Assembly (NCBI RefSeq): GCF_002531725.1
Contig: NZ_NWSQ01000004.1
Span: 62,001 to 126,000, forward strand
Direction: 5' to 3'
DNA length: 64,000 nucleotides
Source of the DNA: Rhizobium sp. L43
Lineage (GTDB): Bacteria; Pseudomonadota; Alphaproteobacteria; Rhizobiales; Rhizobiaceae
Part shown: one piece after another, positions 20,793-41,760 of the stretch
How positions within the stretch are numbered: position 1 is the stretch's first letter
How the letters are laid out: each line of letters begins with the position of its first letter
Made by a program: the position numbers and the translations under genes
Notes under the pieces: model-generated
Databases searched by the model: none
Told to the model about the DNA's origin: nothing
The model's input: only the letters and a program-made list of their open reading frames with translations

Positions 20793-21323
20793 TCACTGCA
20801 GCTGCTGTCGGATGATGGGCAAAGCCAAGGTGAGGAGCGCGGCGAAAACCATGACGACGCCGTAAGGTACCTTTCGGCTTGCCCGGATTTCCTCGACGCG
20901 CATGAAAAAGGCGAGATGTGCGACGGGCAGCGGCACCGGCAGCCGCAGGACCAGGAGCGTCACGATGCCGAGCACGAGGAGCAAAAACGAAAACGGCAGC
21001 ATTCCGTGCCATCCGATAAAAAGGCCGATCGGCAGGAAAAGCTTGGCGTCTCCTGCGCCAAACAGCCGGAACGCCCAGAGCGCCACCCCAAGGGCGAACA
21101 TCAGCAGGCCAGCCCCGAGGTCGCCGCCAATTCCGCTCGAAGCAAACAGCGCAGCGCCGACATCCTGTGAGCCAAGTATCACGGCGACCGTGCGCAATGC
21201 ATAAAGTGCAACGAGCGCGAGCACGATCGCGTTGGGGATCTTCCATGTGCGGAAATCGGTCCAGGCGGCGTAGAGAAAAAGAAATACCGAAAGCGAACTA
21301 ATAACATCGATCATTTGCGGCAT
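20793..21323 (-). CDS. cpaA: Prepilin peptidase CpaA/TadV (A24 family)
   Basis: An inner-membrane aspartic protease of 176 residues that would cleave the leader of Flp pilin and the TadE-type pseudopilins encoded next to it. It has about five to six membrane helices, the first catalytic aspartate in AWTDFRTWKIPN near residue 20, and the second in FGAGDAKLFLPIGL near 90. I chose the ATG at 21323, with AAGGGTGA upstream, over a GTG nine bases earlier. It faces away from the rest of the pilus operon, separated by the pilA promoter region. Confidence 0.93.
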   Translation of the reverse strand: MPQMIDVISSLSVFLFLYAAWTDFRTWKIPNAIVLALVALYALRTVAVILGSQDVGAALFASSGIGGDLGAGLLMFALGVALWAFRLFGAGDAKLFLPIGLFIGWHGMLPFSFLLLVLGIVTLLVLRLPVPLPVAHLAFFMRVEEIRASRKVPYGVVMVFAALLTLALPIIRQQLQ

Positions 21324-21426
21324 GGTATTCACCCTTTTGGGCTATTATAGCCTGATTTGCAAGTTGTTCTACAGTAAATCCAGACGACTGAGTCAGTTTT
21401 TACGAATAGGCACCGGGACTTTGGTC

Positions 21427-21581: not shown

Positions 21582-21785
21582 ATGAAAGCCTTTGTAAATA
21601 GCGTACGCGCTTTCGCGCGGGAAGAAGATGGCGTCGCACTGACCGAATACCTCATTCTGCTTGCCTTGCTGGTTGGCGGCGTCATCGGGGCGGTGACATT
21701 GGCCGGCACCAATCTGGCTACCGTTTGGAACGGCTGGGCAGGCTGGTTTACGAACAACCTGACCGCCCCGGCCCCAGCAGCCTGA
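21582..21785 (+). CDS. pilA: Flp-family type IVb pilin
   Basis: The major subunit of the Tad pilus. The 67-residue prepilin has a short leader, MKAFVNSVRAFAREEDG, cleaved after the glycine by CpaA, then the VALTEYLILLALLVGGVI hydrophobic assembly helix with the Glu and Tyr at the +5/+6 positions typical of Flp pilins. The C-terminus is short (WAGWFTNNLTAPAPAA). The SD GGGAGGAAA is near optimal, which fits high expression. A hairpin after the stop codon probably separates pilin from downstream expression. Confidence 0.96.
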   Translation: MKAFVNSVRAFAREEDGVALTEYLILLALLVGGVIGAVTLAGTNLATVWNGWAGWFTNNLTAPAPAA

Positions 21786-21826: not shown

Positions 21827-21882
21827 CTTCTAAATTAGCATCAATGAATGGATTCGCTCCATCCAGTGTACGAGTAACCGCG

Positions 21883-22800
21883 ATGCGTTCTTCAACGATT
21901 TTAAGTCTCGTTATTGCGTTTGTGCTCGCAGCAGCAGCCGTTTTCGGCATGCGCGAGTATCTCTCCGATCAGAAGGCCCGGCTGCTGGCGATGAACGGCA
22001 TCAAGGCCGAGGAACGGACACTCGTCGTCGCCGCCAAGCCGATGCGCTTCGGCGACCGGATCCGATCCGAAAATCTCAGAGCCATTCCGTGGCCCTCCAA
22101 TGAAACACCCGCAGGTTCGTTCGTCAGCATCGAGATGGTCGTCGGCAACGATGCCCAGCCGCGCTATGCCATGGCGGCGATCGATCCCGGCGAGCCGGTG
22201 CTATCCTCGAAAATCACCGGTGCCGGCGAACGCGCCACGCTGTCGGCGGCGCTCGACCAGGGCATGAAGGCGGTTTCTATCCGCGTCAACGACGTGCTCG
22301 GCGTTGCCGGCTTCGTCAGGCCTTCCGATCGCGTCGACGTGCTTCTGACACGGGTGGTGCGCGGGACGGCAGGCAACGATCAGACCTTCGTCGACGTGCT
22401 GCTGCAAGGCGTCAAGGTGCTGGCGGTGGACCAGACGGCAGACGAGCGCAAGGACGAGCCATCCGTCGTGAAAACCGTGACCTTTGAGGTCACGACCGAT
22501 GAGGCGCAGCGCCTTACCCTCGGCTCCAGTGTCGGCACGCTCTCGCTGGCGCTTCGCAATATTGCCTCTTCCTCTGTCGAGCAAACCCGGCCGATCACCG
22601 TCGCCGACCTCGGTGGTGGGGCGATGGCGGCGGAACTCGGCAAGGATTTGGAAAAGATTGAGTTGCCAGAAGCTGAAAAACAAGTGCAGATTGTGGATCC
22701 GAAGGTCGAACCGGTGTTGTCGGTCGAGCCGAAGTGGGTAACAGTAGGGGTCTGGAACACGACGAAGCGCGAGGAGCACCGAGTCGGCCTGGTCCAGTGA
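21883..22800 (+). CDS. cpaB: Tad pilus assembly protein CpaB/RcpC
   Basis: A periplasmic, inner-membrane-anchored component that works with the secretin. The 305-residue product begins with a membrane anchor (MRSSTILSLVIAFVLAAAAVF), then the SAF domain (TLVVAAKPMRFGDRIRSENL near residue 50) and the RcpC domain (VSIRVNDVLGVAGFVRPSDRVDVLL). An ATG 39 bases upstream (21844) is in frame and cannot be excluded. The stop codon TGA overlaps an in-frame ATG for the next gene (22800), implying coupling. Confidence 0.92.
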   Translation: MRSSTILSLVIAFVLAAAAVFGMREYLSDQKARLLAMNGIKAEERTLVVAAKPMRFGDRIRSENLRAIPWPSNETPAGSFVSIEMVVGNDAQPRYAMAAIDPGEPVLSSKITGAGERATLSAALDQGMKAVSIRVNDVLGVAGFVRPSDRVDVLLTRVVRGTAGNDQTFVDVLLQGVKVLAVDQTADERKDEPSVVKTVTFEVTTDEAQRLTLGSSVGTLSLALRNIASSSVEQTRPITVADLGGGAMAAELGKDLEKIELPEAEKQVQIVDPKVEPVLSVEPKWVTVGVWNTTKREEHRVGLVQ

Positions 22801-22859
22801 TGTTGTTTATGCGGCCTGCCGCGGGTAGCGGCCGGCCGAAGGAGGGGGCTAAAGCAGGC

Positions 22860-24347
22860 ATGGCGAACGGCAAGAGACGAATCGCAGGGACGAAAAGCCT
22901 TGCGGCATTGGCGGCAGTGTTTTCGGCCTGTGTGTGTTTGGGCCCCGGATTTGCCGGCTGCGCCAACGCACAGGAAAAGTCGGTCACCTTAGGCAAATCG
23001 GTCCAGCATGTGACCCTGCCTCCGAACGAGACGCTGACGCTCAATACCGGCCAGCCCTTCGGCGATCTGGTCATCGGCAGCGCCGATTTGATCGACGTGG
23101 TGCCGCTTTCCGACCGGTCGCTGTTCATCCGCGGCAAGAAGACCGGCGCCACCAATATCTCGGTCTATGGCGATGACAAGGCGCTTCTCGGCGTCATCGA
23201 CATCCGCGTTGCCAACGATTTCACCGAAGTCACCTCCGCCATTCGCTCCGCCGCGCCCTCGGCCCGGGTCAGGGTGATCAACTCCAACGATCGCATTCGC
23301 CTGACGGGCACTGTCCGTGACAGCATCGAATTACAGCGGGTGATGGAAGTCGCCCAGTCCTATTCCGACCAACCGGTGCTGAACCAGCTGCGCGTCAGCG
23401 ACAGCCAGCAGGTGATGCTGGAAGTCCGTGTCATCGAAGCCTCACGCCAGACGGGTCGTGACCTCGGGATTGGTTGGTCCGGGCACGGCAACAACGGCAT
23501 CGGCAAGGCAACGACCAGCCAGGGTATCACCGTGGACGATAACGGCAACCTGGCCCGTAGCCTCCTTGACCCCAAGGGTGCGGCAACGGGTATGCTGCCC
23601 TTCGGCCAGTTGATCGCCAAGGTGCTGGAAATCTCCGGCGGTCGCATCGACGTGGTCATCAACGCGCTCGAGCAGAAGGGATTGGTGCGTCGCCTGGCTC
23701 AGCCGAACCTCATCGCCATGAGCGGCTCGACCGCCAGCTTCCATGCCGGCGGTGAAGTGCCGATCCTGAAGACGACGAACAACGGCACGACGGTCGCTAC
23801 CGAGACGGACTATCGCCCCTTCGGCGTGCGGCTGACCTTCAAGCCGGTGGTGCTTGACGACGGCGTCATCAATCTGGAGATCGAGCCGGAGGTTTCCGAG
23901 CTTGATCCATCGATCAACGTCAACGGCAATCCGGGTTTCATCTCACGCGCTGCCAGCACCACGGTCGCACTTCGCGACGGCCAGAGCTTTGCCATGGCGG
24001 GCCTGCTGCAGTCGATCAATGCCAAAGACATCCAGCAACTGCCGGGTCTCGGGCAGATACCGATCCTCGGCGCACTGTTCCGTTCGACGAGTTTCCAGAA
24101 GAAGGAATCCGACCTCGTCATCGTCGTCACCCCGCACATCGTGCGACCGGCTCGCCCGGGCGAGGATCTCTACAGTCCGCTCGACCAGACGCGTTCGTCC
24201 AATGACGCCGAGCTTTTCGCGCTCGGTGTCCTGGAAGTCGACAAGGACATGCTCCGACGCTTTCGCAATGGCGTAGGTGTGACTGGGCCCTATGGCCATC
24301 GTCTCGACCTGAACCAGGGAGTCCAAGCCGTTGCTACAAAACGCTAA
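22860..24347 (+). CDS. cpaC: Tad outer-membrane secretin CpaC/RcpA
   Basis: The outer-membrane channel for the Flp pilus. The 495-residue product has a signal peptide (basic KRR, hydrophobic core, cleavage near ANAQEK), the pilus/secretin N-domain with ADLIDVVPLSDRSLFIRGKK, a BON-like segment (VRVINSNDRIRLTGTVRD), and the secretin core with MLEVRVIEASRQTGRDLGI and QLPGLGQIPILGALFRS. The ATG at 22860 gives the best signal peptide; an in-frame ATG at 22800 overlapping the cpaB stop is the alternative. Full length for the family. Confidence 0.94.
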   Translation: MANGKRRIAGTKSLAALAAVFSACVCLGPGFAGCANAQEKSVTLGKSVQHVTLPPNETLTLNTGQPFGDLVIGSADLIDVVPLSDRSLFIRGKKTGATNISVYGDDKALLGVIDIRVANDFTEVTSAIRSAAPSARVRVINSNDRIRLTGTVRDSIELQRVMEVAQSYSDQPVLNQLRVSDSQQVMLEVRVIEASRQTGRDLGIGWSGHGNNGIGKATTSQGITVDDNGNLARSLLDPKGAATGMLPFGQLIAKVLEISGGRIDVVINALEQKGLVRRLAQPNLIAMSGSTASFHAGGEVPILKTTNNGTTVATETDYRPFGVRLTFKPVVLDDGVINLEIEPEVSELDPSINVNGNPGFISRAASTTVALRDGQSFAMAGLLQSINAKDIQQLPGLGQIPILGALFRSTSFQKKESDLVIVVTPHIVRPARPGEDLYSPLDQTRSSNDAELFALGVLEVDKDMLRRFRNGVGVTGPYGHRLDLNQGVQAVATKR

Positions 24348-24636: not shown

Positions 24637-24730
24637 CTGATCGAAAGGCATGAACGGCGGCAGCGCGCCGGAAGGGGAAATGCACGAAACAGGGTCGTCA
24701 CGGCGATAGCGCCGCGATGGGGGTATGCCA

Positions 24731-26332
24731 ATGCTGAGCAGGGTTATCAGACGGTTCTGGAACGATCATCGTGGCTATGTCATCGCCTTGACGCTCATCG
24801 CCATGCCAATGCTTCTCGGCTTTTCGCTGCTGATCATCGATGTCGGCCGCAGCAGCAACCTGCATACCGATCTCCAGAACGCGGTCGATGCGATGGCGCT
24901 GGCCGGAGCCCGCGAACTCGATGGCCGCGATGATGCCATTTCCAGGGCGCAGACGGCGATCGAGAAAATCGCCAATAGCGCGGCTTTTTCCGGGGGCGGG
25001 GCCGGCATGTCGCTTGGCTCGCATATTACCGTGGCCTACGACGCCGGCAACGATGCCGGGAGCACCGTCACCGTGCTTTTTCTGAAGAGCATCCCTGCCA
25101 ACGACGACACGCCCATCCCGTCTTCGATGCAAACGACCACGGCCAGCGAAGCGTCCTACGCCTGGGTCATCGCCAAGCCGCAGGCGATGACGACGATCTT
25201 TCCGATCCCGGTTGGCTTCACCCGCGATACGATCAACATCTCTGCCGACGCCGTGGCGGTATACCACGCCAGCGCCTGCGACGTGACGCCGATCTTTATC
25301 TGCAATCCGTTCGAGCCGGCGGGCAACACCAGTGAAAGCGCCAGCGAAGTTGCGGCTGCGGCCCTGCACACCAATTTTGCGGCCGGCAATCTCTACGGGC
25401 GACAGATCGAGCTTCACAGCACCTCGGCGTCCAATCCCGGTCCCGGCAATTTCGGGTTCCTGCGCACCCCCTTGGGCAATGGTGCCTCCGTGCTGGCGGA
25501 GGCTCTTGCCACCGGCAATCCCGGTACCTGCTACACACAGGACAGCCTCGATACGGAGACCGGCGCAAAGGCGGGACCGGTCGAGGACGGCGTGAATACG
25601 CGCTTCGGCTATTACTCCTCGTCGTTCAACAAGGCGAACGGCGATTATCGCTACCGACCGGCCCAAAACACACGCTCCGCCCAGACGATCACCGGCAAGG
25701 GAAAGAAGGGCTGCGATACCTACGATCCGGTCACGGTCGGAGCCGTTGTCGGCGATGCCACCAAGGCTTTGCCGCTCGGCTACGGAGCGTCCATGACCTC
25801 GCTTGCCGGCGGCAAGATCAGCAGCAGCAACAATTGGCAGTACATGACATATTGGAATGTCGCGCAGGGAACGGCCGCGCCCTCGGTGAGCACGGTCCTC
25901 GGCAGTCACTCCAGTTATCCCCCGCCGACCGGAACACCAAACCAACCCTCCGCCTACGATGTCTATCGTTACGAGCTGACAAACGCGGCTCTCATCAGCC
26001 ATGCCTCGGCCAATGGTGAGACCGGAACACCGGCAACCGGTGGCCAGTGCTATACCGGCCCGGACCTTTCGAACTATACGGCGGCCGAATATGGTGATCG
26101 CCGCGAGATCTTCTCAGCCATCGTCAATTGCGGCTATGAAGCCTCGGTCGGCCATCTGAACGGTCACAAAGCCACGCGCGCCGTGGCCTTTGCGCGCATG
26201 TTCCTGACCAAACCGGCGATAAAGGATGCCGGCGAACGATACCTTTCCCTGGAGATGATCGACATCACCGGCAAGGGTGGTCGCGGTACGCTGGACGAAT
26301 TCCTGCGGGAAGAAGCGGAGCTGGTCAGATGA
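24731..26332 (+). CDS. TadG-like pseudopilin-related protein
   Basis: A 533-residue Tad assembly protein. The N-terminus (FWNDHRGYVIALTLIAMPML) carries the TadG-type leader and membrane helix with the Glu replaced by Tyr-Val; the leader may not be processed by CpaA. It is followed by DVGRSSNLHTDLQNAVDAMALAGARELDG, the conserved post-helix segment (here in two parts, VGRSSNLHTDLQNA and VDAMALAGA). The rest is a large periplasmic domain rich in Ser/Thr/Asn/Gly with six or more cysteines (ACDVTPIFICN, GTCYTQ, GQCYTG) that could form disulphides. I used the ATG at 24731, with GGGGGT at good spacing. It overlaps the next gene by 4 bases (ATGA). Confidence 0.87.
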   Translation: MLSRVIRRFWNDHRGYVIALTLIAMPMLLGFSLLIIDVGRSSNLHTDLQNAVDAMALAGARELDGRDDAISRAQTAIEKIANSAAFSGGGAGMSLGSHITVAYDAGNDAGSTVTVLFLKSIPANDDTPIPSSMQTTTASEASYAWVIAKPQAMTTIFPIPVGFTRDTINISADAVAVYHASACDVTPIFICNPFEPAGNTSESASEVAAAALHTNFAAGNLYGRQIELHSTSASNPGPGNFGFLRTPLGNGASVLAEALATGNPGTCYTQDSLDTETGAKAGPVEDGVNTRFGYYSSSFNKANGDYRYRPAQNTRSAQTITGKGKKGCDTYDPVTVGAVVGDATKALPLGYGASMTSLAGGKISSSNNWQYMTYWNVAQGTAAPSVSTVLGSHSSYPPPTGTPNQPSAYDVYRYELTNAALISHASANGETGTPATGGQCYTGPDLSNYTAAEYGDRREIFSAIVNCGYEASVGHLNGHKATRAVAFARMFLTKPAIKDAGERYLSLEMIDITGKGGRGTLDEFLREEAELVR

Positions 26333-26808
26333 TGGCGCTCCGCAACTTTATCCGGCATCGGCTTTGCCTCGGCTTCTGGCGGCGGGAGGAAGGCGCGGTG
26401 CTTGCCGAAGCGCTGCTCGCCATCCCCTTTGTGACGCTCTTTGCGGCGGGGATACTGGAGTTTGGCAGCATCTTCTGGGAGCGTATGCAGATCGACGCAG
26501 GCTTGCGCGATGCGGGCCGTTACCTCTCGCGATGCCGGCCGGTGTCGGGAACCTATGTGCCGACATGCAATCAGGCGACTGCGAAGACGATCGCCTTTTA
26601 CGGAACGCAAACACCTGCGGCAGGCGCTATACCCCGCGTCCCCGACTGGAAGGACCCTTCCGACATCACCATTAGTGCACCCGATGCGGATGGGAACATC
26701 ACCATCTCAACTGCTCATCTCTACAAGAGCTCGCCGGTGTTCGGTTTTCTCGGAATCGGTGCCATCACGATCAGTTCCTTCCACGAAGAGAGATACATCG
26801 GATGGTGA
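26329..26808 (+). CDS. TadE-like pseudopilin 1
   Basis: A 159-residue minor pseudopilin of the Flp pilus. The leader ends FWRREEGAVLAEALLAIPFV, with a cleavable Gly and Glu at +5 as in TadE/TadF, followed by a single membrane helix and a periplasmic domain with two cysteines (SRCRPVSGTYVPTCNQ). Its start overlaps the tadG-like stop and its stop lies inside the next gene's start region, so the three are coupled. Confidence 0.88.
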   Translation: MMALRNFIRHRLCLGFWRREEGAVLAEALLAIPFVTLFAAGILEFGSIFWERMQIDAGLRDAGRYLSRCRPVSGTYVPTCNQATAKTIAFYGTQTPAAGAIPRVPDWKDPSDITISAPDADGNITISTAHLYKSSPVFGFLGIGAITISSFHEERYIGW

Positions 26809-27425
26809 CCTCTAGGGCGATCAAGACCTTCTTGCAGGATAGCAGTGGTGCCAGCCTTGTCGAAGCATTGCTGACCTTTCCGATCGTCATGCTGGTATTC
26901 GCCGCCTTCATCGAGTTCGGCTATGCCATGTCGCAGTGGAATCAGACGGTCAAGGCACTGCAATATGGTGCCCGTTTGGCCGCCGTATCCGATCCGGTGA
27001 CAACGAATTTCGATGCCGTTTTCCCGGTCGGAGCTGCCGATCCGCTCAACAACGGCAAAGCGGCGCCGAACGATGCCACGATATCCTCGACCTGCGGACC
27101 GGCTCTTGCCAACTGCACAGCGGCGTTGAACCGGATCGTCCTGGGAAGCGACGGCGTTTGCAACGCGGGAACCGATCCCCACCCCGGCATTTGCGATCTC
27201 AATTGGCGCATCACGCCGGATAAGCTGATGGTCACCTATCAGCGATCGGGGCTCGGCTATTGGGGCCGGCCGGACGGGCCTGTGCTGACGATGCGGCTGG
27301 AGGTGCGCAATATCACCTTCGATTTGCCGATCCTCGGCGGGCTGTTGGGACTGAACGACGTCACCATCCCGGCCCATCCGGTGACGATCACGACGGAAGA
27401 TCTAAAGACGTGCTCCACCTGCTGA
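26802..27425 (+). CDS. TadE/TadF-like pseudopilin 2
   Basis: A 207-residue minor pseudopilin. The leader LQDSSGASLVEALLTFPIV gives a cleavable Gly followed by an assembly helix with Glu at the usual place (LVEAL). The periplasmic domain contains five cysteines, including TCGPALANCTA and the terminal KTCSTC. It overlaps the preceding gene by 7 bases. The pair resembles the TadE-TadF arrangement needed to prime pilus assembly. Confidence 0.86.
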   Translation: MVTSRAIKTFLQDSSGASLVEALLTFPIVMLVFAAFIEFGYAMSQWNQTVKALQYGARLAAVSDPVTTNFDAVFPVGAADPLNNGKAAPNDATISSTCGPALANCTAALNRIVLGSDGVCNAGTDPHPGICDLNWRITPDKLMVTYQRSGLGYWGRPDGPVLTMRLEVRNITFDLPILGGLLGLNDVTIPAHPVTITTEDLKTCSTC

Positions 27426-27453: not shown

Positions 27454-28596
27454 ATGACAGCTCACATGAACATTGCCGCATCCACCAAGATCCTGGTTCT
27501 CTCCGACGACGCGGCTGCAGCGAGCTTCATGCTCGATACGTTCGGGTCGCTTTCGCGTTACGATGTCCGCCATCTCTCGATGAAGGCGCTGGGAGAAAAG
27601 GGCCGGTTCGATCCGACGCAATTCAACCTGATCGTTCTCGACGTTGACAACGGGAATTTGCTGCAGCAGCCGGAGCTTTTCGCCTTTCGCGCCAGCTATC
27701 GGGACATTCCGCTCGTCGTCGTTTCCGAAGACCTGCCGGATGACATGCTACGGCTGCTTTTCCGCCTGAACGGCAATGACTGGCTGAAGAAGCCGCTCGA
27801 GCGCCGCGCCCTGATCGACATGATTTCGACCCATGCGCCGGGCACCGGGGCCAGCGACAGCCGGGTGCATGCCGTGGTCTCAGCCGTCGGTGGCGCGGGC
27901 GCCAGCATGATCGCTTCGTCGCTTGCGCATGTGCTGGCCCAGCCGACCAAGAATTCCACGCCGCGGATCGACTTGTTCGACACGGATTTCTGCTCCGGAG
28001 CGCTTGGCTATTATCTCAACCTCGTCAACGACTACGACTTGAAACCCGTCATCGCCAATCCTTCCCGGGTCGATCTGGAATTCATCGATCTGGTGCGAAA
28101 GCGTCATTCGGGCGGCTTTTCGCTGCTGTCCTTCAAGCAGCCATCCGTTCTTATGGCGCCGAAGGGCCGTGAACTCGTGCTGCGTATGCTCGATGTGGCC
28201 GCCTTCGAGAGCGACCACACGATCATCGACATTCCCTATTATGACACGCCGTGGAAATACGAAGTGCTCACTTCGGTCAACAGCATCTGCATCGTCACCG
28301 AAATGACGGTCCCTGCGCTTTCTCAGGCCAAGGATTTGTTTGCCAATCTGGTCCGGCTGCGCGGCAGTTCGGATCAGATATTCATCGTCATCAACAAATA
28401 CCGCTCCAAGCTTTTCGGCCTCGGCCTGCGCCGACAACAAACGGAAAAGATCTTCAAGGAGATCCCGACGCAAGTCATTGCGGATGACTGGGATACTCTG
28501 AGCGAGGCGGTCAACCGCGGCGTACTGCCATTTCAAGTGAATTCCCGGGCGCGCTTCTGCGGCGCGGTCGGTAAGCTTGGAGCACTGGTGCGATGA
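27454..28596 (+). CDS. cpaE: CpaE/TadZ localisation ATPase-like protein
   Basis: A cytoplasmic MinD/ParA-fold protein that marks the pole for Tad assembly. The 380-residue product has an atypical receiver-like N-domain (about residues 1-125, IVLDVDNGNLLQ, VVSEDLPDDML, WLKKPL) and a ParA-like C-domain. The deviant Walker A reads VVSAVGGAGASMIASSLAHV: both the signature lysine and the P-loop lysine of KGGVGKT are missing, although the following helix and the Walker B-like HTIIDIPYYDTP are kept. Loss of the P-loop Lys is known in TadZ; loss of both is notable. SD AGGAAAG precedes the ATG. It overlaps the next gene by 4 bases. Confidence 0.9.
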   Translation: MTAHMNIAASTKILVLSDDAAAASFMLDTFGSLSRYDVRHLSMKALGEKGRFDPTQFNLIVLDVDNGNLLQQPELFAFRASYRDIPLVVVSEDLPDDMLRLLFRLNGNDWLKKPLERRALIDMISTHAPGTGASDSRVHAVVSAVGGAGASMIASSLAHVLAQPTKNSTPRIDLFDTDFCSGALGYYLNLVNDYDLKPVIANPSRVDLEFIDLVRKRHSGGFSLLSFKQPSVLMAPKGRELVLRMLDVAAFESDHTIIDIPYYDTPWKYEVLTSVNSICIVTEMTVPALSQAKDLFANLVRLRGSSDQIFIVINKYRSKLFGLGLRRQQTEKIFKEIPTQVIADDWDTLSEAVNRGVLPFQVNSRARFCGAVGKLGALVR

Positions 28597-29165
28597 AGGC
28601 GATCGACAGTGGGCGCATAAGGTCCCGCGCCGTTAATGTCGGTCTTGCGGTTTTGGCAATTCTGGCCGTTGCCGGCGATGCCGCGGCAGCCGGGCTTGTG
28701 CCGCGAAGCCTTGGGCCGACGACAGCCGCCGTGGTGACGATCGAAAAAAGCTACGCGGCTGGGACAATCGTCATCGTCAGCGGCAATCGTACGCTGGATC
28801 TCGTCATCTCCGAAGGACGCGCGATCCGTTACAAAATCGGGGTTGGACGAGACGGATTTCGCTGGAGCGGTACCGTCAAGGTTGGACGCAAGGCAGAGTG
28901 GCCTGACTGGCGCCCGCCTGCCGAGATGAAGGCGCGCGCAGCCGGGCTTCCGGACCTGGTGCCGGCCGGGCCGCTCAATCCATTGGGTGCTCGCGGGATC
29001 TATCTCTACAAGGGCGGGACCGACACGCTCTACCGCATTCATGGAACGAACGAGCAGTCGACGGTCGGCGGTTTCGCGTCATCGGGCTGTTTTCGCATGA
29101 GCAATGCCGACGTCATCGATCTCTATGCGAGGGTGAAAGTCGGTTCCACGGTCATTGTAAAATAA
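28593..29165 (+). CDS. L,D-transpeptidase embedded in the Tad operon
   Basis: A 190-residue exported YkuD-family enzyme. It has a signal peptide (AVNVGLAVLAILAVAGDAAAAG), then the catalytic domain with VGRKAEWPDWRPPAEM, NPLGARGIYLYKGG, RIHGTNEQ and the catalytic cysteine in SSGCFRMSN. It is a close paralogue of the enzyme at 9865-10479 but lacks a lipobox. Its ATG overlaps the cpaE stop (ATGA) and cpaF follows after 18 bases, so it belongs to the operon. A role in remodelling peptidoglycan around the pilus machine is inferred from position. Confidence 0.92.
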   Translation: MKAIDSGRIRSRAVNVGLAVLAILAVAGDAAAAGLVPRSLGPTTAAVVTIEKSYAAGTIVIVSGNRTLDLVISEGRAIRYKIGVGRDGFRWSGTVKVGRKAEWPDWRPPAEMKARAAGLPDLVPAGPLNPLGARGIYLYKGGTDTLYRIHGTNEQSTVGGFASSGCFRMSNADVIDLYARVKVGSTVIVK

Positions 29166-29183
29166 GAGTTCGGGGTGGGAAAC

Positions 29184-30626
29184 ATGGCGAACGGTATCAT
29201 CGGGCGTTTCTACAAGCAGCGGGGGGAAAGCCGGGAAGATCTGGAGGCGGCCGAACTGTCTTTGGTCGGCGCAGTTGAGAACATGCCTGCCCAACCTTCC
29301 GACAGCGCCACTGCGAGCGGCGAAGAGGCTGCGCTCGGGCCGGACATGGTTTCCGAGCGGGTCAATCTGCACCGCTACCTGCTCGATCGCATCAACCTCG
29401 GGATCCTCGACACACTCGACAACGAGGAGATCGCCACCGAGATCCGGCCGTTGGTCAAGGACTATATCCGGAACAACAACTTTCCGCTGAATGCCAAGGA
29501 AATCAATGATCTGATCCGCGATATCACCGATGAGATGCTCGGGCTGGGACCGATCGAGCCGTTGCTGGCCGACGACACAATCGCGGATATTCTCATCAAC
29601 GGTTACAACAGCGTCTATGTCGAGCGGAGCGGCAAGCTCGAGGGTACCGCCGTCCGGTTCAAAGACGAGGACCACCTGCTTCGGGTGATCAACAAGATCG
29701 TCTCGGCGGTGGGCCGCCGTGTCGACGAGTCGACGCCGATGGTTGACGCCCGCCTCAAGGATGGCTCGCGTGTCAACGTCGCCATCCGGCCGATCTCGGT
29801 CGATGGACCGCTCGTTTCCATCCGCAAATTCACGCGCAAGCCGCTGACGATGGAGCGCCTGGTGCAATATGGCGCCATGGCCGATGCGATGCGCATCCTT
29901 CTCAGCGCCGCGGTCAAGGGCAAGGTGTCCATGGTCATTTCAGGCGGCACCGGTTCCGGCAAGACCACCTTGCTGAACGCTCTCTCGTCGCAGATTTCGC
30001 CAAAGGAGCGCCTGATCACCATCGAGGATGCGGCCGAGCTTCAACTGCAACAGCCACATGTCGGGCGTCTGGAAACCCGGCCGCCGACGCTCGACGGACG
30101 CAACGAGATCCGGCAACGCGAACTTTTGAAAAACGCCCTGCGCATGCGTCCCGACCGCATCATCGTCGGCGAAGTGCGCGGCGACGAGGCGTTCGACATG
30201 CTGCAGGCGATGAACACCGGTCACGAGGGGTCGATGACGACCATTCACGCCAACACGCCGCGCGACGCTGTCGGCCGGCTTGAGCAGATGGTCGGCATGG
30301 CAGGGATGCCGATGTCGCAGTTGAGCATTCGCTCGCAGATCTCGTCCGCCATCACCATGATCGTGCAGGTCCAGCGCCTGAGCGACGGCAGCCGCAAGAT
30401 CGTCTCGATTTCCGAGATCACCGGCATGGAGGGCGAAGTCGTGCAGATGCAGGAGATTATGAAATTCAAGAAAATCGGCACCGATGAAGGCGGGCGGATC
30501 CATGGGGAATTCCGCGCCACCGGCATCCGGCCGCGGTTCGTCGAGGAATTTGCCGAACTCGGGATCGAGATCCCTGTGGCGATTTTTGATCCCGGCAAAC
30601 CGCTGCAAACGGGATCTGTTCAATGA
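29184..30626 (+). CDS. cpaF: Tad secretion ATPase CpaF/TadA
   Basis: The hexameric motor that drives Flp pilus extension (and perhaps retraction). The 480-residue product has an N-terminal domain ([17 protein letters not shown]), a linker with [18 protein letters not shown], then the ATPase core: Walker [15 protein letters not shown] near residue 253, Asp box [11 protein letters not shown], Walker [20 protein letters not shown] and His box [17 protein letters not shown] chose the ATG at 29184 with GGGGTGG upstream over an in-frame GTG at 29175. The stop overlaps the tadB start (ATGA). Confidence 0.96.
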
Positions 30627-31576
30627 CCCTCACTCTGCTTTACGCCGCCGTTTTCACCGCCGCCCTTGTCGCTGTCGAAGCGATCATGCGCAACTACTTC
30701 AAGAGCTCCGAACGACACCGCGCCGTGAACCATCGGCTGAGCTTGCTCGAGGTCAGCGACGATCATCGCAAGACCTATAGCGATATGCTGAAGGAGCGCG
30801 GTGCCGGCGGCGGTTGGCGGCAAACCCCCATCACGCAGCGGCTGCTACAGTTCTACGCCCAGTCCGGAATCAAGTTCGATGCCAGGCGATTTGCTCTCTT
30901 CGCGATCGCGGGCGCCCTTTTGACGTGGCTGGCCGCGGGGTTCCTCGTGCCCAGCACTCTGTTCAGGATCCCCGTCTTTCTCCTGATCTGTCTCCTCATC
31001 CCTGCGCTCGTCGTCTGGCGCGCCCGGGCGCGCCGCATGCGGAAGTTCGAACTGAAGCTTCCTGAAGCGCTCGATGTCGCCAATCGCAGCTTGGCCGCCG
31101 GCCACCCGCTGCCGGCGGCGATTTCTTTGGTGGCACGCGAGATGCCCGATCCGATCGGCACCGAGTTCGGCCTCCTCTCGGATGAGCTCACCTACGGCGT
31201 GACGCTGGACGATGCCCTCGTCAACTTGGCCGACCGGGTCGGCGTCGAGGATCTGAACCTGCTTGCAATATCGCTGAGCGTGCAGGCCGGAACCGGCGGA
31301 AACCTCGTGGAGATCCTGCAGAACCTTTCGAAGACGCTGCGCGACCGGTATATGCTGAAGGCAAAGGTCAAGGCGATTTCCTCGGAAGGACGCATCACGG
31401 CGATCTTCATGTCGGGGTATCCGTTCCTGCTCTACGCGATGATCAAGACCTTGTCGCCGACCTACTTCGATCCCGTTTGGGATAGCGGCCACGGAACCAT
31501 GGTGGTGAGCGTGCTGCTGGCCGTCATGGCGATCGGGAATGTCATTCTCTACAAGATGGTCAACTTCGAGTACTGA
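30623..31576 (+). CDS. tadB: Tad inner-membrane platform protein TadB
   Basis: A 317-residue T2SSF-domain membrane protein. An N-terminal helix (LLYAAVFTAALVAVEAIM), two helices around residues 85-135 and two at the C-terminus flank the T2SF domain (RKFELKLPEALDVANRSLAA near residue 140, LAISLSVQAGTGGNLVEIL). This fits TadB, which forms the rotor platform with TadC and CpaF. It starts within the cpaF stop codon. Confidence 0.94.
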   Translation: MTLTLLYAAVFTAALVAVEAIMRNYFKSSERHRAVNHRLSLLEVSDDHRKTYSDMLKERGAGGGWRQTPITQRLLQFYAQSGIKFDARRFALFAIAGALLTWLAAGFLVPSTLFRIPVFLLICLLIPALVVWRARARRMRKFELKLPEALDVANRSLAAGHPLPAAISLVAREMPDPIGTEFGLLSDELTYGVTLDDALVNLADRVGVEDLNLLAISLSVQAGTGGNLVEILQNLSKTLRDRYMLKAKVKAISSEGRITAIFMSGYPFLLYAMIKTLSPTYFDPVWDSGHGTMVVSVLLAVMAIGNVILYKMVNFEY

Positions 31577-31583
31577 GGCTGTT

Positions 31584-32528
31584 ATGTCGAGTGAGTATGG
31601 AATTTATCTCATCGTCTTCTTTGCAGTGCTGATCTTTTCCGCAGCAGCATCGGAATTGTTTTTCCGACAGCGCGAGGTCTCGGTCCGGGTGTCGAAGAGC
31701 TCGGCGGCATCAGGCGACGAGTTCCATCTTGGCGATACGACGATTGCCGATCTCGGCGAGGCGGAAAACCGCCTGATCCGTCGCTATTTCGAAATTACGC
31801 GACGTGACACCAATGTGAACTCTACCCAGAACCGGCTGATCCGGGCGGGGTATTTCGCTGCCGGCGCCGTGACCACCTTCCAGGTGGTTCGCGCGGTGAT
31901 CTGTATCGGCATGCTGGTCGCAGCGGTCTGGGCCTTAAACCGGTTCGCGCCTGATATGTCGCAGGTGGTGACGCTGATCCTTGGCATGTTTGCTGCGGGG
32001 TCGACCTTTATTTTGGTCAACATCTATATCGACCGGCGTGGCGCCGCCAAGGAGAGGGAGTACCGCCGCCTCTTTCCCGATTTCATGGATATGCTGATCG
32101 TCTGCCTCGATGCGGGCATGAGCATCGAGGCGGCGGCGAACCGTGTTGCCCGGGAATTCGTTGCCAAGCAGCAGGACTTCGGCCTGCATCTCTCGATCAT
32201 GATGCTGGAAGTGCGGGGCGGCCGGCGCTTGCGTGAGGCGCTCGCCAACCTTGCCATCCGCCTGAGGATTGACGAAGCCCGGGCCCTGTCCGTTCTGTTC
32301 CGCCAATCGGAAGAACTCGGGACCAGCGTAACGCAGACGCTGCGGGTCTACTGCAAGGAAATGCGCGACCTCCGTATCGTGCGCGCGGAGGAAAAGGCGA
32401 ACGCCCTGCCGGTCAAGATGCTGCTGCCGCTCGGCGCGTTCCTTTTCCCGGTAAGCCTCGTCATCGTTCTTGTACCCGTTGTTATGCGTGTCGTCAGTCT
32501 TCTCATCGGCATGAAACCCGGCGGTTGA
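31584..32528 (+). CDS. tadC: Tad inner-membrane platform protein TadC
   Basis: A 314-residue partner of TadB with the same fold. It has an N-terminal helix (YGIYLIVFFAVLIFSAAAS), a pair of helices at about residues 100-150, the T2SF domain (YRRLFPDFMDMLIVCLDAGM, then LSVLFRQSEELGTSVTQTL) and a C-terminal helix pair. I took the ATG at 31584 after the tadB stop; an in-frame upstream start inside tadB gives a tail unlike the family. Confidence 0.93.
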   Translation: MSSEYGIYLIVFFAVLIFSAAASELFFRQREVSVRVSKSSAASGDEFHLGDTTIADLGEAENRLIRRYFEITRRDTNVNSTQNRLIRAGYFAAGAVTTFQVVRAVICIGMLVAAVWALNRFAPDMSQVVTLILGMFAAGSTFILVNIYIDRRGAAKEREYRRLFPDFMDMLIVCLDAGMSIEAAANRVAREFVAKQQDFGLHLSIMMLEVRGGRRLREALANLAIRLRIDEARALSVLFRQSEELGTSVTQTLRVYCKEMRDLRIVRAEEKANALPVKMLLPLGAFLFPVSLVIVLVPVVMRVVSLLIGMKPGG

Positions 32529-32543: not shown

Positions 32544-33848
32544 ATGCAGTATTCGCTCGAACAGAATCGTAACGAGGCCATCATTTCCCTCGATCCGCGT
32601 ATGCCGATGGCACCGGCAAGCATCGAACAGGCCGGACTGGATCCGTCGTTCCTGCTTCGGCTGGCGTCAAAATGCGCGGCCGAGCAGGATACGACCACGG
32701 CATCTCATCTGGCCGACCGGATGAAATTGCCGAAAGTGATCGTCAATATCCTGATCAAGGAGCTCGTGAAACTCGCCTATCTCGAGGCGCGCGGCTTGGC
32801 TGGTGAGGATGTGCGATCCGATATTCGGTATGCGCTTTCCATGAAGGGGTTCGAATATGCCCACGCGGCGTCGCGTCAAAGCCAATATGTCGGCCCGGCG
32901 CCGGTATCGCTGGACGCGTTCTGTCGGCAAGTCGGTTTGCAGTCCATCCATGACGAGCGCGTGACCCCGGAGCGGCTGAACGACAGCCTTGACGGGCTGG
33001 TGCTCTCGGATGTTTTGGTCGAAAAGCTCGGCCCTGCCATCAACTCCGGTCGCTCTATCCTGCTTTACGGACCACCCGGCAACGGAAAGACGAGCATCGC
33101 CGAGCGGACGTCGCAACTGTTTCGCCAAACGATCTGGGTGCCCTATGCCATCGAGGTCGGCGGCCATGTCATCAGTTTCTATGACGAAGCAGTGCATCAC
33201 CCCGTATCGGAGACTGACACGGAATCCCATCCGAAAGCGGATCAACGATGGATCGAGTGCCGCCGTCCGGTGATCAAGACGGGCGGGGAATTGACCCTCG
33301 ATCAGCTCGACCTCACCTTCAACGAAGGACCGAATGTCTACGAAGCGCCCATACACTTGAAGGCATCAGGCGGTGTTTTCATCATCGACGACTTCGGGCG
33401 TCAACAAGTGGCGCCGCAGGCGCTCATCAATCGCTGGATTGTGCCGCTCGAGCGTGGATATGACTTCCTGACGCTGCACACCGGCAAGAAGTTCAGGGTT
33501 CCCTTTGACGAATTGGTGGTGTTTTCGACGAATATCGCACCGAAGGACCTTTCCGACGAGGCGGGCTTGCGGCGACTCAAGTATAAGATCTTTGTGAACA
33601 CGCCGTCGCGCGACGAATATATCAGAATTTTCAAATCCTATGCCAGCAGCACCGGATTGGCTGTCTGTGATCCAGACCTGAACCTGTTCTACGATCGCAA
33701 GTACAAAGGCGATGTGCTGGCATCTTGCTACCATCCGAAATATCTTCTGGATTTCGTCGGTTCCTACTGCGAGTTCAACGGCATAGCCGGAAACGCGTCG
33801 CTCGATATGCTCGAACGGGCGTGGGAAGGCGTGTTTACATCGGAATGA
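32544..33848 (+). CDS. AAA+ ATPase associated with the Tad locus
   Basis: A 434-residue protein with no signal peptide. Residues 30-110 look like a winged-helix or helical domain (LASKCAAEQD.. SHLADRMKLPKVIVNILIKEL). An AAA+ module follows: Walker A YGPPGNGKTSIAE at 175-187, Walker B GGVFIIDDFGRQ at 276-287, sensor-1-like VVFSTNIAPK at 325-334 and a conserved arginine pair LRRLKYKIF. The C-terminal part (350-434) is a helical lid. It sits 15 bases after tadC in the same direction, so it is probably part of the pilus operon. It is not one of the standard Tad components; I do not know its function. An ATP-driven assembly, disassembly or regulatory role is conjecture. Confidence 0.8.
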   Translation: MQYSLEQNRNEAIISLDPRMPMAPASIEQAGLDPSFLLRLASKCAAEQDTTTASHLADRMKLPKVIVNILIKELVKLAYLEARGLAGEDVRSDIRYALSMKGFEYAHAASRQSQYVGPAPVSLDAFCRQVGLQSIHDERVTPERLNDSLDGLVLSDVLVEKLGPAINSGRSILLYGPPGNGKTSIAERTSQLFRQTIWVPYAIEVGGHVISFYDEAVHHPVSETDTESHPKADQRWIECRRPVIKTGGELTLDQLDLTFNEGPNVYEAPIHLKASGGVFIIDDFGRQQVAPQALINRWIVPLERGYDFLTLHTGKKFRVPFDELVVFSTNIAPKDLSDEAGLRRLKYKIFVNTPSRDEYIRIFKSYASSTGLAVCDPDLNLFYDRKYKGDVLASCYHPKYLLDFVGSYCEFNGIAGNASLDMLERAWEGVFTSE

Positions 33849-33909: not shown

Positions 33910-34479
33910 ATGACCAGCATCCCAAGTATCGAGGTCGAAGCAGACCGCGCAAAACCAAGCAAGACGCCAGCAATAGAGCCGAGAGGCTCAAAAAGCCCGT
34001 TGCTCGTCGGTTTGCTCCTGATGCTCCTGCCTGTGAATGCCGGTGTTCTCATCTATACCGCCAAAAACTCAGCGGATGTTCGCGAGAGCCGCGAGACCAT
34101 TGCCGCGCTCAAAAGGTCTATCGATGGCCTGAGAGGGCAAATGGAAAAGCAGTCGGGCCACATCGCGGACAATGCCAAGGCCGACGACGTCGCCCTTATC
34201 CGCCAGGAGATGGATAGCCTGCAAAAGGCTGTTTTGTCGATGAACGAACGGATGCGCAGCGACACCAGCGTCACACGCATGGGGTCAGCCTTGGTCCTCA
34301 GCGCGCCCGGCAAGGAACCGGCACAATTTTTCGCACCCCGTGCCATGCCGGCGGAAACGCAAACTCCGGATAACACTCTGGCATCCATCGAAGCCGGGGG
34401 CATTTCAGTGAGTGACCTGCCGCGTTACGAACGAACACTCTCGCCGGAAGGTCAGCTCATCCTTCGCAAGGCACGGTAA
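33910..34479 (+). CDS. Membrane-anchored coiled-coil protein of unknown function
   Basis: A 189-residue protein not recognised from a named family. A charged N-terminus is followed by a membrane helix (SPLLVGLLLMLLPVNAGVLI, residues 29-48), then a heptad-like coiled coil of about residues 55-120 (SRETIAALKRSIDGLRGQM; IRQEMDSLQKAVLSMNERM) and a Pro/Ala-rich periplasmic tail. GGGGGAG lies close upstream of the ATG. It follows the AAA+ ATPase gene by 61 bases and is the last rightward gene of the locus, so it may be the inner-membrane partner of that ATPase (inference). The following 114 bases to 34593 have no gene that I can support. Confidence 0.7.
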   Translation: MTSIPSIEVEADRAKPSKTPAIEPRGSKSPLLVGLLLMLLPVNAGVLIYTAKNSADVRESRETIAALKRSIDGLRGQMEKQSGHIADNAKADDVALIRQEMDSLQKAVLSMNERMRSDTSVTRMGSALVLSAPGKEPAQFFAPRAMPAETQTPDNTLASIEAGGISVSDLPRYERTLSPEGQLILRKAR

Positions 34480-34593: not shown

Positions 34594-35136
34594 CTATCCC
34601 CGCTGAGCGTAATTCACGCTGTTCTTCATCAATTCCAGATTGCGGGCAGTGACTTCGTTTCCGGGATCAAGCTCATAGGCTTTCAGGAAATACCGTCTGG
34701 CGGTGCGCAAGTCACCGCGTAACAGGTGAGAATATCCGATATTGTTGTAGTAGACCGGGGTGTTGCCGATCATTCGCGAGAGCTGCTGATAGGCGCGGTC
34801 TGATGTGTCGAAGCGGGCAACCATGTCGGCGGAGGCCGCCAAGCCTAGCCAAGCGGCCGGATCCTGCGGAAACACGTCAACCGCTCGCTTGTAAATGGCA
34901 TAAGATTTTCCGTAGTTCTTTTCCTGGAACTGCAGCTTGCCGGTGGTGATCAACTCGTCGTTCTTATAGAAGGCGACGGCTGAGTCATCCTCGACGGTCT
35001 TTGCACTATCGCCATAAGCAGCAAGGCCATCAACGCCGGATGACTGGCAACCAGCTAAAATCGCTCCCGTCGCTATCAAAAGCGCGATGCATTTAGTTCC
35101 AGCTCTGATCTGCAACATTGGCAATTTGATCCCCAT
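34594..35136 (-). CDS. TadD-like TPR lipoprotein
   Basis: A 180-residue lipoprotein with a signal peptide ending IATGAILAGC (lipobox LAGC). It contains three or so TPR units (LQFQEKNYGKSYAIYKRAVD, AWLGLAASADMVARFDTSD, YNNIGYSHLLRGDLRTARR). TadD-like lipoproteins of this type support Tad secretin and pilus biogenesis. An internal ATG at 35118 would also give an intact lipoprotein signal. It is encoded convergently with the main operon, so it is probably separately expressed. Confidence 0.85.
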   Translation of the reverse strand: MGIKLPMLQIRAGTKCIALLIATGAILAGCQSSGVDGLAAYGDSAKTVEDDSAVAFYKNDELITTGKLQFQEKNYGKSYAIYKRAVDVFPQDPAAWLGLAASADMVARFDTSDRAYQQLSRMIGNTPVYYNNIGYSHLLRGDLRTARRYFLKAYELDPGNEVTARNLELMKNSVNYAQRG

Positions 35137-35935: not shown

Positions 35936-37420
35936 TCAGGGCTGCTGGTTGACCCAGGCATAGCCGAAACGATAGCGGTCGTCGCCGCGCCGGTAGAAAT
36001 AGGGGGTGTCGATTACCAATGCCTCGGGTGCGGGCGCGCCGAGATTGGCCTGCAGCCATTCCGCCATATCAGGCGGCAGCGCTTCGCTGCCGCCCTTGGG
36101 GAGAAGCCACACCAGGAGAAGCGGGCGCCGGCCTGAAAGATCCGGGTGGAAGCCGGGATAATCCACCGAAAGGACCGGCACGCCGGGAATATCCTGCCTG
36201 AGGTTGCCGGCAAGCAGGCTGTCGCCGGCAAGGATCGCCGCCGGTTCGGCCTGTTGGCGCAGGGTTTCCAGCATCGTGGCATAGGGCCTGTTCAGCCGCT
36301 CGTAATGGCCGGTGAAACGTGCGGCTGCGACGCTGCCGTAAAGGGCTGCCGGCACGCCGATCATGATGATGGCGATGACGGCCATGAACCGCCGGAACGC
36401 TCGGCCGGTCACGACGCCCGCTGCCTCGATCTTCAGGCAGAAATAGAGCGGCAGGATGAAGAGCATCGGCACCAGCCAGCGATCCTTGATGCCGGCAGCG
36501 CCGCCGAAGACGATCAACAACAGAATGCCGACCAGGAAGACGAACATCATCCGCTCGAGCAGCCGCGTCCATTGCGAGCTCTCCGTCAGCGCCGGACGAA
36601 GGCCCTTGCCGAAGAGGATGGCGAATACCGCCACGGTCAATCCGGCAAAGCTGATGATGGCGAGAGCAAGCGAGCCGATACCCATGGCCACCTGCGCCGG
36701 ATAGCTCGCATGGCCGCTCGCGGTCATCTTCTCCAGCGTGCGCGCGGTGGCGAAATCGAGATTGTCCTTCAGCCAGAAGAGATGCGGCAGGGTGATGATG
36801 AGCGCCACCGTCGCCGTCAGCACCAGCCGCCAATCGAAGATCCGCGGCCGCAGGCGGGCATCCGAAAGCGCGGCAATCAGGGCTGCCGCCGGCAGGATCG
36901 CGAAATTATATTTGGCAAGCAGGCCGAAGCCGATGCCGATGCCTGCTATCAGATAGGAGGCAAGGCTTGGCTGCTTCAAGCTGCGGATGAAGCCGTAGAG
37001 AAAGATGCTGGCCGAGAAGAACACCGCGACCGTATGCGTCAGGTCGCGCTGCATCTCGAAAGCCATCTGCGGGAGGGTCAGCAGCCCGAGGGTGGCGATC
37101 GCCACCAGCGCCTTGTCGCGCAGGATAAGGCGCGCGGTCAGGCCGTAGAGCAGGTAGGAAATGAACAGCAGAAGGTTCTTCACGAGCGAAAGCGCGGCAA
37201 GCGAGACGCCTGTAAACTGAAAGACGGTATATTGCAGCCAGTTGTAGAAGGGCGGCTGCGGGCCGTAGCCGGCGGCAAGCCATTGCGAGCGGAAGGCCTG
37301 TTCGGCTTCGTCGAGGTCGAGCGAATGTGAGGTTGCGAGCCGCACGCCGACCTGAAGCGCGAAATAGGCGGCCAGGAGAACGAAGATCCACCTGATGTCG
37401 CGAAGCTTGCTCTCGGTCAT
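35936..37420 (-). CDS. GT39-family glycosyltransferase (Rgt/ArnT-like)
   Basis: A 494-residue integral-membrane transferase of the ArnT/PMT_2 group that uses a polyprenyl-phosphate sugar donor on the periplasmic side. It has an N-terminal helix, then the DLDEAEQAFRSQWLAAGYGP catalytic loop with the essential Asp-Glu near residue 37, NWLQYTVFQFTG, and about 11-12 further helices (HLFWLKDNLDF in loop 6), then a C-terminal soluble domain. The family RgtA-RgtD of Rhizobium adds galacturonic acid to LPS core and lipid A. Its start codon directly follows the stop of the upstream paralogue (TAG-ATG). Which Rgt it is cannot be told from sequence alone. Confidence 0.88.
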   Translation of the reverse strand: MTESKLRDIRWIFVLLAAYFALQVGVRLATSHSLDLDEAEQAFRSQWLAAGYGPQPPFYNWLQYTVFQFTGVSLAALSLVKNLLLFISYLLYGLTARLILRDKALVAIATLGLLTLPQMAFEMQRDLTHTVAVFFSASIFLYGFIRSLKQPSLASYLIAGIGIGFGLLAKYNFAILPAAALIAALSDARLRPRIFDWRLVLTATVALIITLPHLFWLKDNLDFATARTLEKMTASGHASYPAQVAMGIGSLALAIISFAGLTVAVFAILFGKGLRPALTESSQWTRLLERMMFVFLVGILLLIVFGGAAGIKDRWLVPMLFILPLYFCLKIEAAGVVTGRAFRRFMAVIAIIMIGVPAALYGSVAAARFTGHYERLNRPYATMLETLRQQAEPAAILAGDSLLAGNLRQDIPGVPVLSVDYPGFHPDLSGRRPLLLVWLLPKGGSEALPPDMAEWLQANLGAPAPEALVIDTPYFYRRGDDRYRFGYAWVNQQP

Positions 37421-38923: not shown

Positions 38924-38932
38924 GCCGCCGGC

Positions 38933-39949: not shown

Positions 39950-40086
39950 CTTTCATCTCCAAAAGGCCGGGCGGCCGAGCAATCTTACTGCCGCCGCCAC
40001 GCTTGCGGAAGGCTAGTACATGAAGTGTCCGCCGGTTGCCAGCGGGCAATGCCGGTTTCCCCGCAATCGGCTGACCAGCCGCAACG

Positions 40087-41580: not shown

Positions 41581-41760
41581 CGATCTCCATGGCAAGCCGG
41601 CAAAGGCATGTCATTTACCAGTCAGCACTCGGATCGTCGGCGGGAAGCGCCTTCGCCCCCATCGCCATCAACTCCGCCGTTGTGCGCAACCTGCATTTCT
41701 CTTAAAAGGCCTGGCAACGGGACCGGTCCCATGCCGACCCAAGCGAGGAATGCCTACTAC

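Follow-up and report, generated by a model that had tools for sequence, protein, structure and literature searches.

The core of the Tad pilus system is known, and its motor ATPase CpaF has been described in Caulobacter as one motor for both extension and retraction (available part of PMC12019362). The authors suggested there that a regulatory element not yet known might set the direction of the motor. According to the available parts of the corresponding papers, the tad genes of Rhodobacterales (PMC8383342) and of Sinorhizobium meliloti (PMC10934763) have also been studied. What is new here is that some Tad systems possess an additional, undescribed family of AAA+ ATPases. This family is probably a real, little-studied helper of Tad pili, with relatives in the tad clusters of many distant bacteria. 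No description of it was found in the open-access literature, and the lone AAA ATPase mention met, in the available part of its source, concerned another ATPase in a nifH context.

The window, a stretch of 64,000 nucleotides from Rhizobium sp. L43, was located on contig C36 of the genome, and its tad locus looks complete in terms of ORF content, from the prepilin peptidase through the TPR protein. The genome showed only one match to the protein encoded by the gene of interest, a wHTH-AAA+ ATPase. Matches were also present on 75 plasmid records, 57 of which were near-identical copies on Rhizobium plasmids; carriers of the gene among the matches listed included Rhizobium, Sinorhizobium fredii and many Rhodobacteraceae. 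Plasmid p42e of R. etli CFN 42 carried one of the near-identical copies in an identical gene order, annotated merely as "ATPase AAA". The features of the locus are listed below.

20793..21332, minus strand: prepilin peptidase (CpaA/TadV); ORF whose position equals the annotated p42e prepilin peptidase
21582..21785, plus strand: presumably a Flp-type pilin, the type being recognised from the ALTEYLIL stretch of the ORF
21844..22800, plus strand: CpaB/RcpC (PF16976, E 2.5e-30; TIGR03177)
22734..24347, plus strand: RcpA/CpaC secretin (PF00263, E 6.6e-46), the true start probably lying 3' of the ORF start
24725..26332, plus strand: TadG-like protein (PF13400, E 8.3e-9)
26329..26808, plus strand: TadE-like pseudopilin (PF07811, E 9.3e-6)
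26802..27425, plus strand: TadE/TadF-like pseudopilin (PF07811, E 1.6e-8)
27454..28596, plus strand: CpaE/TadZ-like protein; ParA/CbiA and CpaE-homologue models match weakly, below cut-off, and p42e annotates it as "response regulator/pilus assembly protein"
28593..29165, plus strand: L,D-transpeptidase of the tad operon (PF03734, E 2.8e-19)
29175..30626, plus strand: CpaF/TadA motor ATPase (PF00437, E 1.3e-61)
30623..31576, plus strand: TadB platform protein (PF00482, E 6.9e-18)
31584..32528, plus strand: TadC platform protein (PF00482, E 1.9e-14); ORF listed from 31539, start chosen
32544..33848, plus strand: wHTH-AAA+ ATPase of 434 aa, an open ORF with an ATG start (ORF, conserved columns, predicted structure)
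32625..32879, plus strand: predicted winged-helix domain of the ATPase, residues ~28–112, MarR-like fold (AlphaFold2 models, Foldseek against the PDB)
32979..33845, plus strand: AAA+ core and lid of the ATPase, residues ~146–434 (conserved columns, AAA+ fold matches)
33910..34479, plus strand: small protein with one membrane helix and a coiled coil by eye; no Pfam match at cut-off
34594..35136, minus strand: TPR protein, TadD-like (TPR families); a homologue adjoins other ATPase-bearing loci

The gap between the tadC stop at 32528 and the ATPase ATG at 32544 is 15 bases, exactly as the initial annotation had claimed, and a GAGG lies 4 bases 5' of the ATG. A sigma-70 promoter scan found no site, with 1.0 expected. 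Between the window and p42e, the dN/dS of the ATPase gene was 0.102, which indicates purifying selection level with that on TadA (0.101); the values for CpaE, TadC, TadB and the coiled-coil gene were 0.098, 0.134, 0.169 and 0.197, respectively. Homologues of the coiled-coil gene (33910–34479) were confined to the Rhizobiaceae among the loci searched, so its product is unlikely to be a general partner of the ATPase family.

The L,D-transpeptidase gene was situated between cpaE and cpaF, within the tad operon; it was annotated likewise in Salipiger and R. etli (L012 and L016), and loci such as L181 also had a transpeptidase match behind cpaE. Adjoining the tad island were three multi-membrane ORFs that resemble one another, each of ~500 aa (35936–41595, minus strand). 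By eye, we take them to be glycosyltransferase-39-like, around a glycosyltransferase family 2-like ORF. The window genome displayed a second strong CpaB match on contig C24 (297240–297941, minus strand), which probably represents a second tad locus.

No model reached its cut-off in a Pfam and NCBIfam scan of the ATPase; the sub-threshold matches clustered around the P-loop, apart from one weak MarR_2 match in the N-domain. The statement that the protein is not a known Tad component thus holds as far as tested, with no family model at cut-off and no published description found. The residues G176, G179, G181, K182, D282, D283, N330 and R343/R344 were invariant both in a 13-row alignment, which included Burkholderia and Photobacterium, and in a 53-row alignment of the window protein and 52 loci from the best 80 of 341 relatives; G285-R286-Q287, N296-R297 and others were also invariant in the latter. 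We assign these residues to Walker A (176–183: G176, G179, G181, K182), Walker B (279–283: D282, D283) and sensor 1 (N330), in addition to R343/R344. Their conservation fits an active ATPase. The AlphaFold2 model had a mean pLDDT of 89.6, and the Walker A and B motifs, sensor 1 and a trans-acting arginine on a predicted AAA+ fold place the protein among the AAA+ ATPases. Its N-domain, folded alone, gave a winged helix with a pLDDT of 93. The intact AAA+ module and the helical/winged N-domain originally proposed were therefore borne out, the former by invariant ATPase residues and a confident AAA+ model, the latter by a MarR-like winged helix in the predicted structure.

The best fold match, extending over both the winged helix and the AAA+ core, was Q8U0N8 (PDB 8p49), an uncharacterised protein from Pyrococcus furiosus (Foldseek E 2.9e-13). 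Against the model range 5–432, VIA-align gave a Z of 17.2 over 278 aligned residues with 15% identity and an rmsd of 5.3, which is large and concerns two domains. The 8p49 entry has chains A to F, and a literature search on the two codes returned no description and only an unrelated paper. Many AAA+ chains were tied after 8p49 at Z ~14–16 in a VIA-align list that probes mainly residues 127–433, so that absence of a family from it does not exclude that family. The chains of NorQ, cso-CbbQ, PspF and magnesium chelatase were among these matches, and two traits of the model, the long segment separating the Walker motifs and a hairpin that precedes sensor 1, were read by us as features of the MoxR/NorQ/CbbQ and sigma54-activator clades. 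A MoxR-type assembly chaperone, which would help to insert or mature an envelope component of the Tad system (such as the secretin, a pseudopilin or TadG) and would not act on the motor, could be proposed from these fold matches; however, the chains named tie with the many other AAA+ chains. The bpMoxR model gave E 0.12 and 11.8 bits on the window protein, against a cut-off of 27, and matched 4 of the 53 relatives at E ≤0.01 (relatives from the best 80 of 341). The usual partner of MoxR is a vWA-domain protein, and none of the tad proteins scanned had a vWA domain over cut-off, the ivWA match on CpaE (E 0.008) being below it. Such a chaperone role is, in our view, unlikely. Membership of the sigma54 activators failed as well: PF00158 was absent from the matches of the window protein and matched 7 of 53 relatives (from the best 80 of 341) at E ≤0.01, with a best E of 1.4e-4.

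As a second ATPase adjoining tadC, the protein might also be a motor devoted to retraction, equivalent in the Tad system to PilT. However, neither PF00437 nor any PilT/PilB/TadA model matched it at E ≤1, while PF00437 and the PilT models do match CpaF; membership of the PilT/VirB11-like (T2SSE) family therefore failed. Moreover, CpaF is reported to drive both directions in Caulobacter (available part of PMC12019362), so that a separate retraction role is not needed. The retraction motor is not supported, and we regard it as very improbable.

The N-domain leads to another reading. In a Foldseek search against the PDB, the isolated N-domain matched mostly MarR-family proteins (E ~1e-4), which bind DNA; the predicted structure has the MarR-type winged-helix fold, with Pfam MarR_2 below cut-off. 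Because the N-domain is MarR-like, an AAA+ transcription regulator is a live alternative: the target bound by the winged helix would be a tad promoter or a different site, with the ring sensing ATP or a signal and thereby controlling tad expression. The winged helix was near-neutral among the 53 members, with net charges from −6 to +2 (median −1; window +1), which we take as unusual for a DNA reader. It was also less conserved than the AAA base (mean conservation 0.45 and 0.65, respectively), with the lid equally low (0.44); a separate winged-helix alignment comprised the window and 38 of the best 80 of 341 relatives. Such a regulator is possible, and we consider it the less probable side of the question; the MarR-like winged helix does count against an action on the Tad motor, since it suits a DNA-binding protein too.

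Co-occurrence was examined in a main sample of 398 evenly drawn Pseudomonadota genomes, in which a strong ATPase match was defined as E <1e-60 and four weak matches to the P-loop only (G034, G272, G330, and G388) were dropped. A strong match was detected in 52 of the 398 genomes, belonging to 15 families. The Tad marker CpaB (TIGR03177) was over its cut-off in 165 of the 398 genomes and in 50 of the 52 ATPase-positive ones, the two exceptions being G164 and G346; the Fisher p of 2.8e-19 is overstated because genomes are not independent, but the 52 positives still span 15 families. In those 50 genomes the CpaB matches had E 2.2e-40 or better, with passage of the cut-off inferred from the E-value for the weaker ones. 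Conversely, 115 of the 165 CpaB-positive genomes had no ATPase and ~30% (50/165) had it. The word "accessory" is thus apt: Tad pili as a whole can do without the ATPase, which would modulate rather than enable them.

In a sample centred on G539, a MAG of Acidobacteriaceae (phylum by record title only), 10 of 149 genomes contained the ATPase, and TadA was found in seven of the nine positive genomes other than the centre genome. None of these 10 matches coincided with a match in the Pseudomonadota sample. A further sample, centred on G545 (a contig with Acidobacteria in its title), was left uncounted, since 12 of its 13 genomes with a strong match shared the match coordinates, within a few bases, with genomes of the Pseudomonadota sample; titles of records can thus give a misleading phylum. 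The ATPase was present in 5 of 151 Rhizobiaceae genomes and in 8 of 150 genomes of an order-level sample, one of them split over two contig-end pieces; two P-loop-only matches (G034 and G076) were dropped from the latter.

In 45 of the 52 positive Pseudomonadota genomes, window included, tad core genes were found ~10 kb or less from the ATPase gene, the flanks covered being ~9–10 kb per side unless the contig ended sooner; the chance expectation from genome size alone is ~1% (32 kb in 4 Mb). The gene was beside tad genes in all five positive Rhizobiaceae genomes and in five of the eight from the order-level sample, and it lay behind tadC on the same strand in five of the ten positives of the G539-centred sample. 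The gene-neighbourhood survey that the initial annotation had proposed therefore showed homologues that are not mainly away from tad genes (45/52 linked, 50/52 with CpaB). The designation as a Tad accessory is upheld by the enrichment of CpaB (50/52 vs 165/398), by the linkage in 45 of 52 genomes, and by recurrence in the sample from a second phylum and at other operon positions.

This recurrence across lineages and operon positions also bears on the idea that the gene is an unrelated passenger, a defence or mobile-element ATPase present by chance in the island. Its occurrence on 75 plasmid records would suit a passenger, and so would matches to the anti-phage protein IetA (best E 1.1e-7) and to the phage family phrog_3757 (E 8.5e-10). 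However, the IetA matches were limited to residues 139–191 around the P-loop, the IteA model, whose cut-off is 510 bits, gave 25.7, so membership of the IetA/IteA anti-phage ATPases failed, and a tblastn search at E 1e-3 matched no phage record. The passenger, to which we attach hardly any probability, is largely refuted by the counts of co-occurrence and linkage. The match to phrog_3757 covered residues 88–188 and extended past the P-loop.

For the arrangement of the loci, a pool of 155 de-duplicated loci was compiled, which is rich in Rhodobacteraceae and, as it draws on no more than the best 80 of 341 relatives, biased towards sequences close to the query. Four duplicate loci were removed, and L001–L011, L018–L046, and L186–L209, which have short flanks and mostly repeat genes already in the pool, were left out. 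Of these 155 loci, 110 had one tad core gene or more and 105 had at least three, with the best 80 of 341 relatives included. Among the 110 linked loci of this pool, again with the best 80 of 341 relatives, the nearest tad gene was tadC, upstream and co-directional, in 73; cpaB, downstream and co-directional, in 24; tadA or cpaE in three; and a gene on the opposite strand in 10, the last of which would suit a regulator. The distance between tadC and the ATPase gene in Rhodobacteraceae was mostly ~3 kb among the pooled loci, including those from the best 80 of 341 relatives. In 23 of the 24 cpaB-adjoining loci, the named ones of the 23 being Paraburkholderia, Burkholderia, and Photobacterium, 38–166 bases separated the profile-matched stretches (same pool, best 80 of 341 relatives included), so the gene stood directly before cpaB. 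This position is favourable to a MoxR-type chaperone for an envelope component; it argues against a transcription regulator, as the gene is often within structural operons.

The layouts were seen directly in annotated plasmids. Among the matches listed, linked loci outside the Pseudomonadota included those of a Chloroflexota MAG (L092), Desulfobacca (L090), and Geomonas (L104), the last with its tad genes on the other strand at a distance of 3.4 kb. In Aliivibrio salmonicida, tadV and rcpC have consecutive locus tags (available part of PMC6420764), which implies, as far as that part goes, that the ATPase gene of this species is not at the usual gammaproteobacterial place.

No tad core gene was found in 45 of the 155 pooled loci (best 80 of 341 relatives included), of which 19 had shorter flanks and 26 had flanks of 7 kb or more to either side; these 26 count against an action on the Tad motor. 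Against it also stand the ATPase-positive genomes with no TadA match (G776 and G794, together with G164, G346, G536, G537, and G550, of which the last five also had no CpaB over cut-off), and the window genome itself, which has the second strong CpaB match, yet only one ATPase match. Some unlinked copies may thus serve something else. Tandem pairs of ATPase genes were observed at L129 (G157), L132 (G188), and L061 (a Desulfuromonas MAG); the stretches covered there contained no tad core gene.

A CpaB match was present in 31 of 35 genomes with unlinked copies, and over cut-off in 30; the check covered 35 genomes, fewer than the genomes of all 45 unlinked loci. These copies, mostly in tad-positive genomes, could act in trans, as a regulator would. 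Besides the gene itself and an antisense ORF, the recurrent neighbours of unlinked copies were only common genes, at six loci or fewer. When the ~50 residues before the winged helix of one unlinked member were searched with phmmer against the PDB, they matched the N-terminal domain of the type IV pilus extension ATPases PilF (E 1.7e-13), MshE (9.5e-7), and PilB (9e-4). PilF has several copies of this domain. A profile of this N-module, built from eight unlinked members and replacing a regular-expression scan that had found nine (155 loci), matched 26 of the 45 unlinked members (18 of the 37 not used for building) and 2 of the 110 linked ones, in the pool that includes the best 80 of 341 relatives. 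The two linked bearers, L094 and L104, were 7.2 and 3.4 kb, respectively, from the nearest tad gene, which was on the other strand. The module was fused to the wHTH-AAA+ protein in L180, L183, L068, L055, and others, mostly unlinked members.

A full MshEN domain, suggested by eye, was rejected: the Pfam model was silent, and phmmer supports homology to a part of the domain only. Pfam MshEN gave no match at E 0.01 in four proteins of three suspected module genes and no match at E 1 at the ATPase genes of the genomes searched. With part of the domain only and Pfam silent, binding of c-di-GMP or another ligand is not claimed. As judged from these similarities, the N-module is independent support for a putative role in type IV filaments, not specifically in Tad. 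The pilus-ATPase-like module in front of the sister subfamily also argues against the transcription regulator.

In a tree of 152 members, made by a quick method with several long branches, near-copies included and three short rows dropped (pool with the best 80 of 341 relatives), tad-linked members occurred on both sides of the midpoint root, and 12 changes between linked and unlinked states were counted, compared with 37.2 in shuffles. The distances of the ATPase and TadA were correlated over 34 loci, thinned from 98 (Pearson r 0.714, a value reached in none of 5000 permutations; Spearman 0.458), and this congruence could come partly from shared vertical descent.

Here, the following reading is preferred, and we would place about half of our confidence in it: the protein may be a catalytically competent and probably ring-forming AAA+ ATPase that is dedicated to Tad, optional and distinct from CpaF, and that remodels or gates the motor. 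Its subunits would assemble as a ring and act in the cytoplasm on the motor and platform of the Tad system, and the winged helix would bind a partner. ATP-driven movement would then remodel or gate either the motor formed by CpaF-TadB-TadC(-CpaE) or the assembly of that motor, and the outcome might be a tuning of when pili form or how they behave. Remodelling or regulating the CpaF-TadB-TadC motor is the most likely role, as we infer it. Remodelling of the motor and coupling of pilus state to regulation are both possible and are inseparable by sequence alone. A bolder version is that the ATPase is a directional switch or load-dependent regulator of the bifunctional CpaF, and that the N-module-bearing sister subfamily plays this part in trans, in Tad systems or in other type IV filaments, where a second messenger might control it; we hold this to be distinctly unlikely. 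The conserved ATPase, present in 50 of the 165 Pseudomonadota genomes with CpaB, offers a concrete candidate, open to testing, for the direction-setting element or else for a novel factor in assembly.

Compared with the known systems, the ATPase has the operon in common with CpaF/TadA, and both are P-loop ATPases. However, CpaF/TadA belongs to another ATPase class, and the T2SSE family matches CpaF but not the wHTH-AAA+ protein. The MoxR/NorQ/CbbQ and sigma54-activator AAA+ proteins have the AAA+ fold in common with it (Z ~14–15), while their family models match the ATPase family around the P-loop only. The N-terminal domain of PilB, PilF, and MshE (MshEN) was absent from the window protein and from 108 of the 110 tad-linked members, in the pool that includes the best 80 of 341 relatives. 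The type IV pilus extension ATPases are built on a PilT/VirB11-like core, whereas the ATPase family described here has an AAA+ core.
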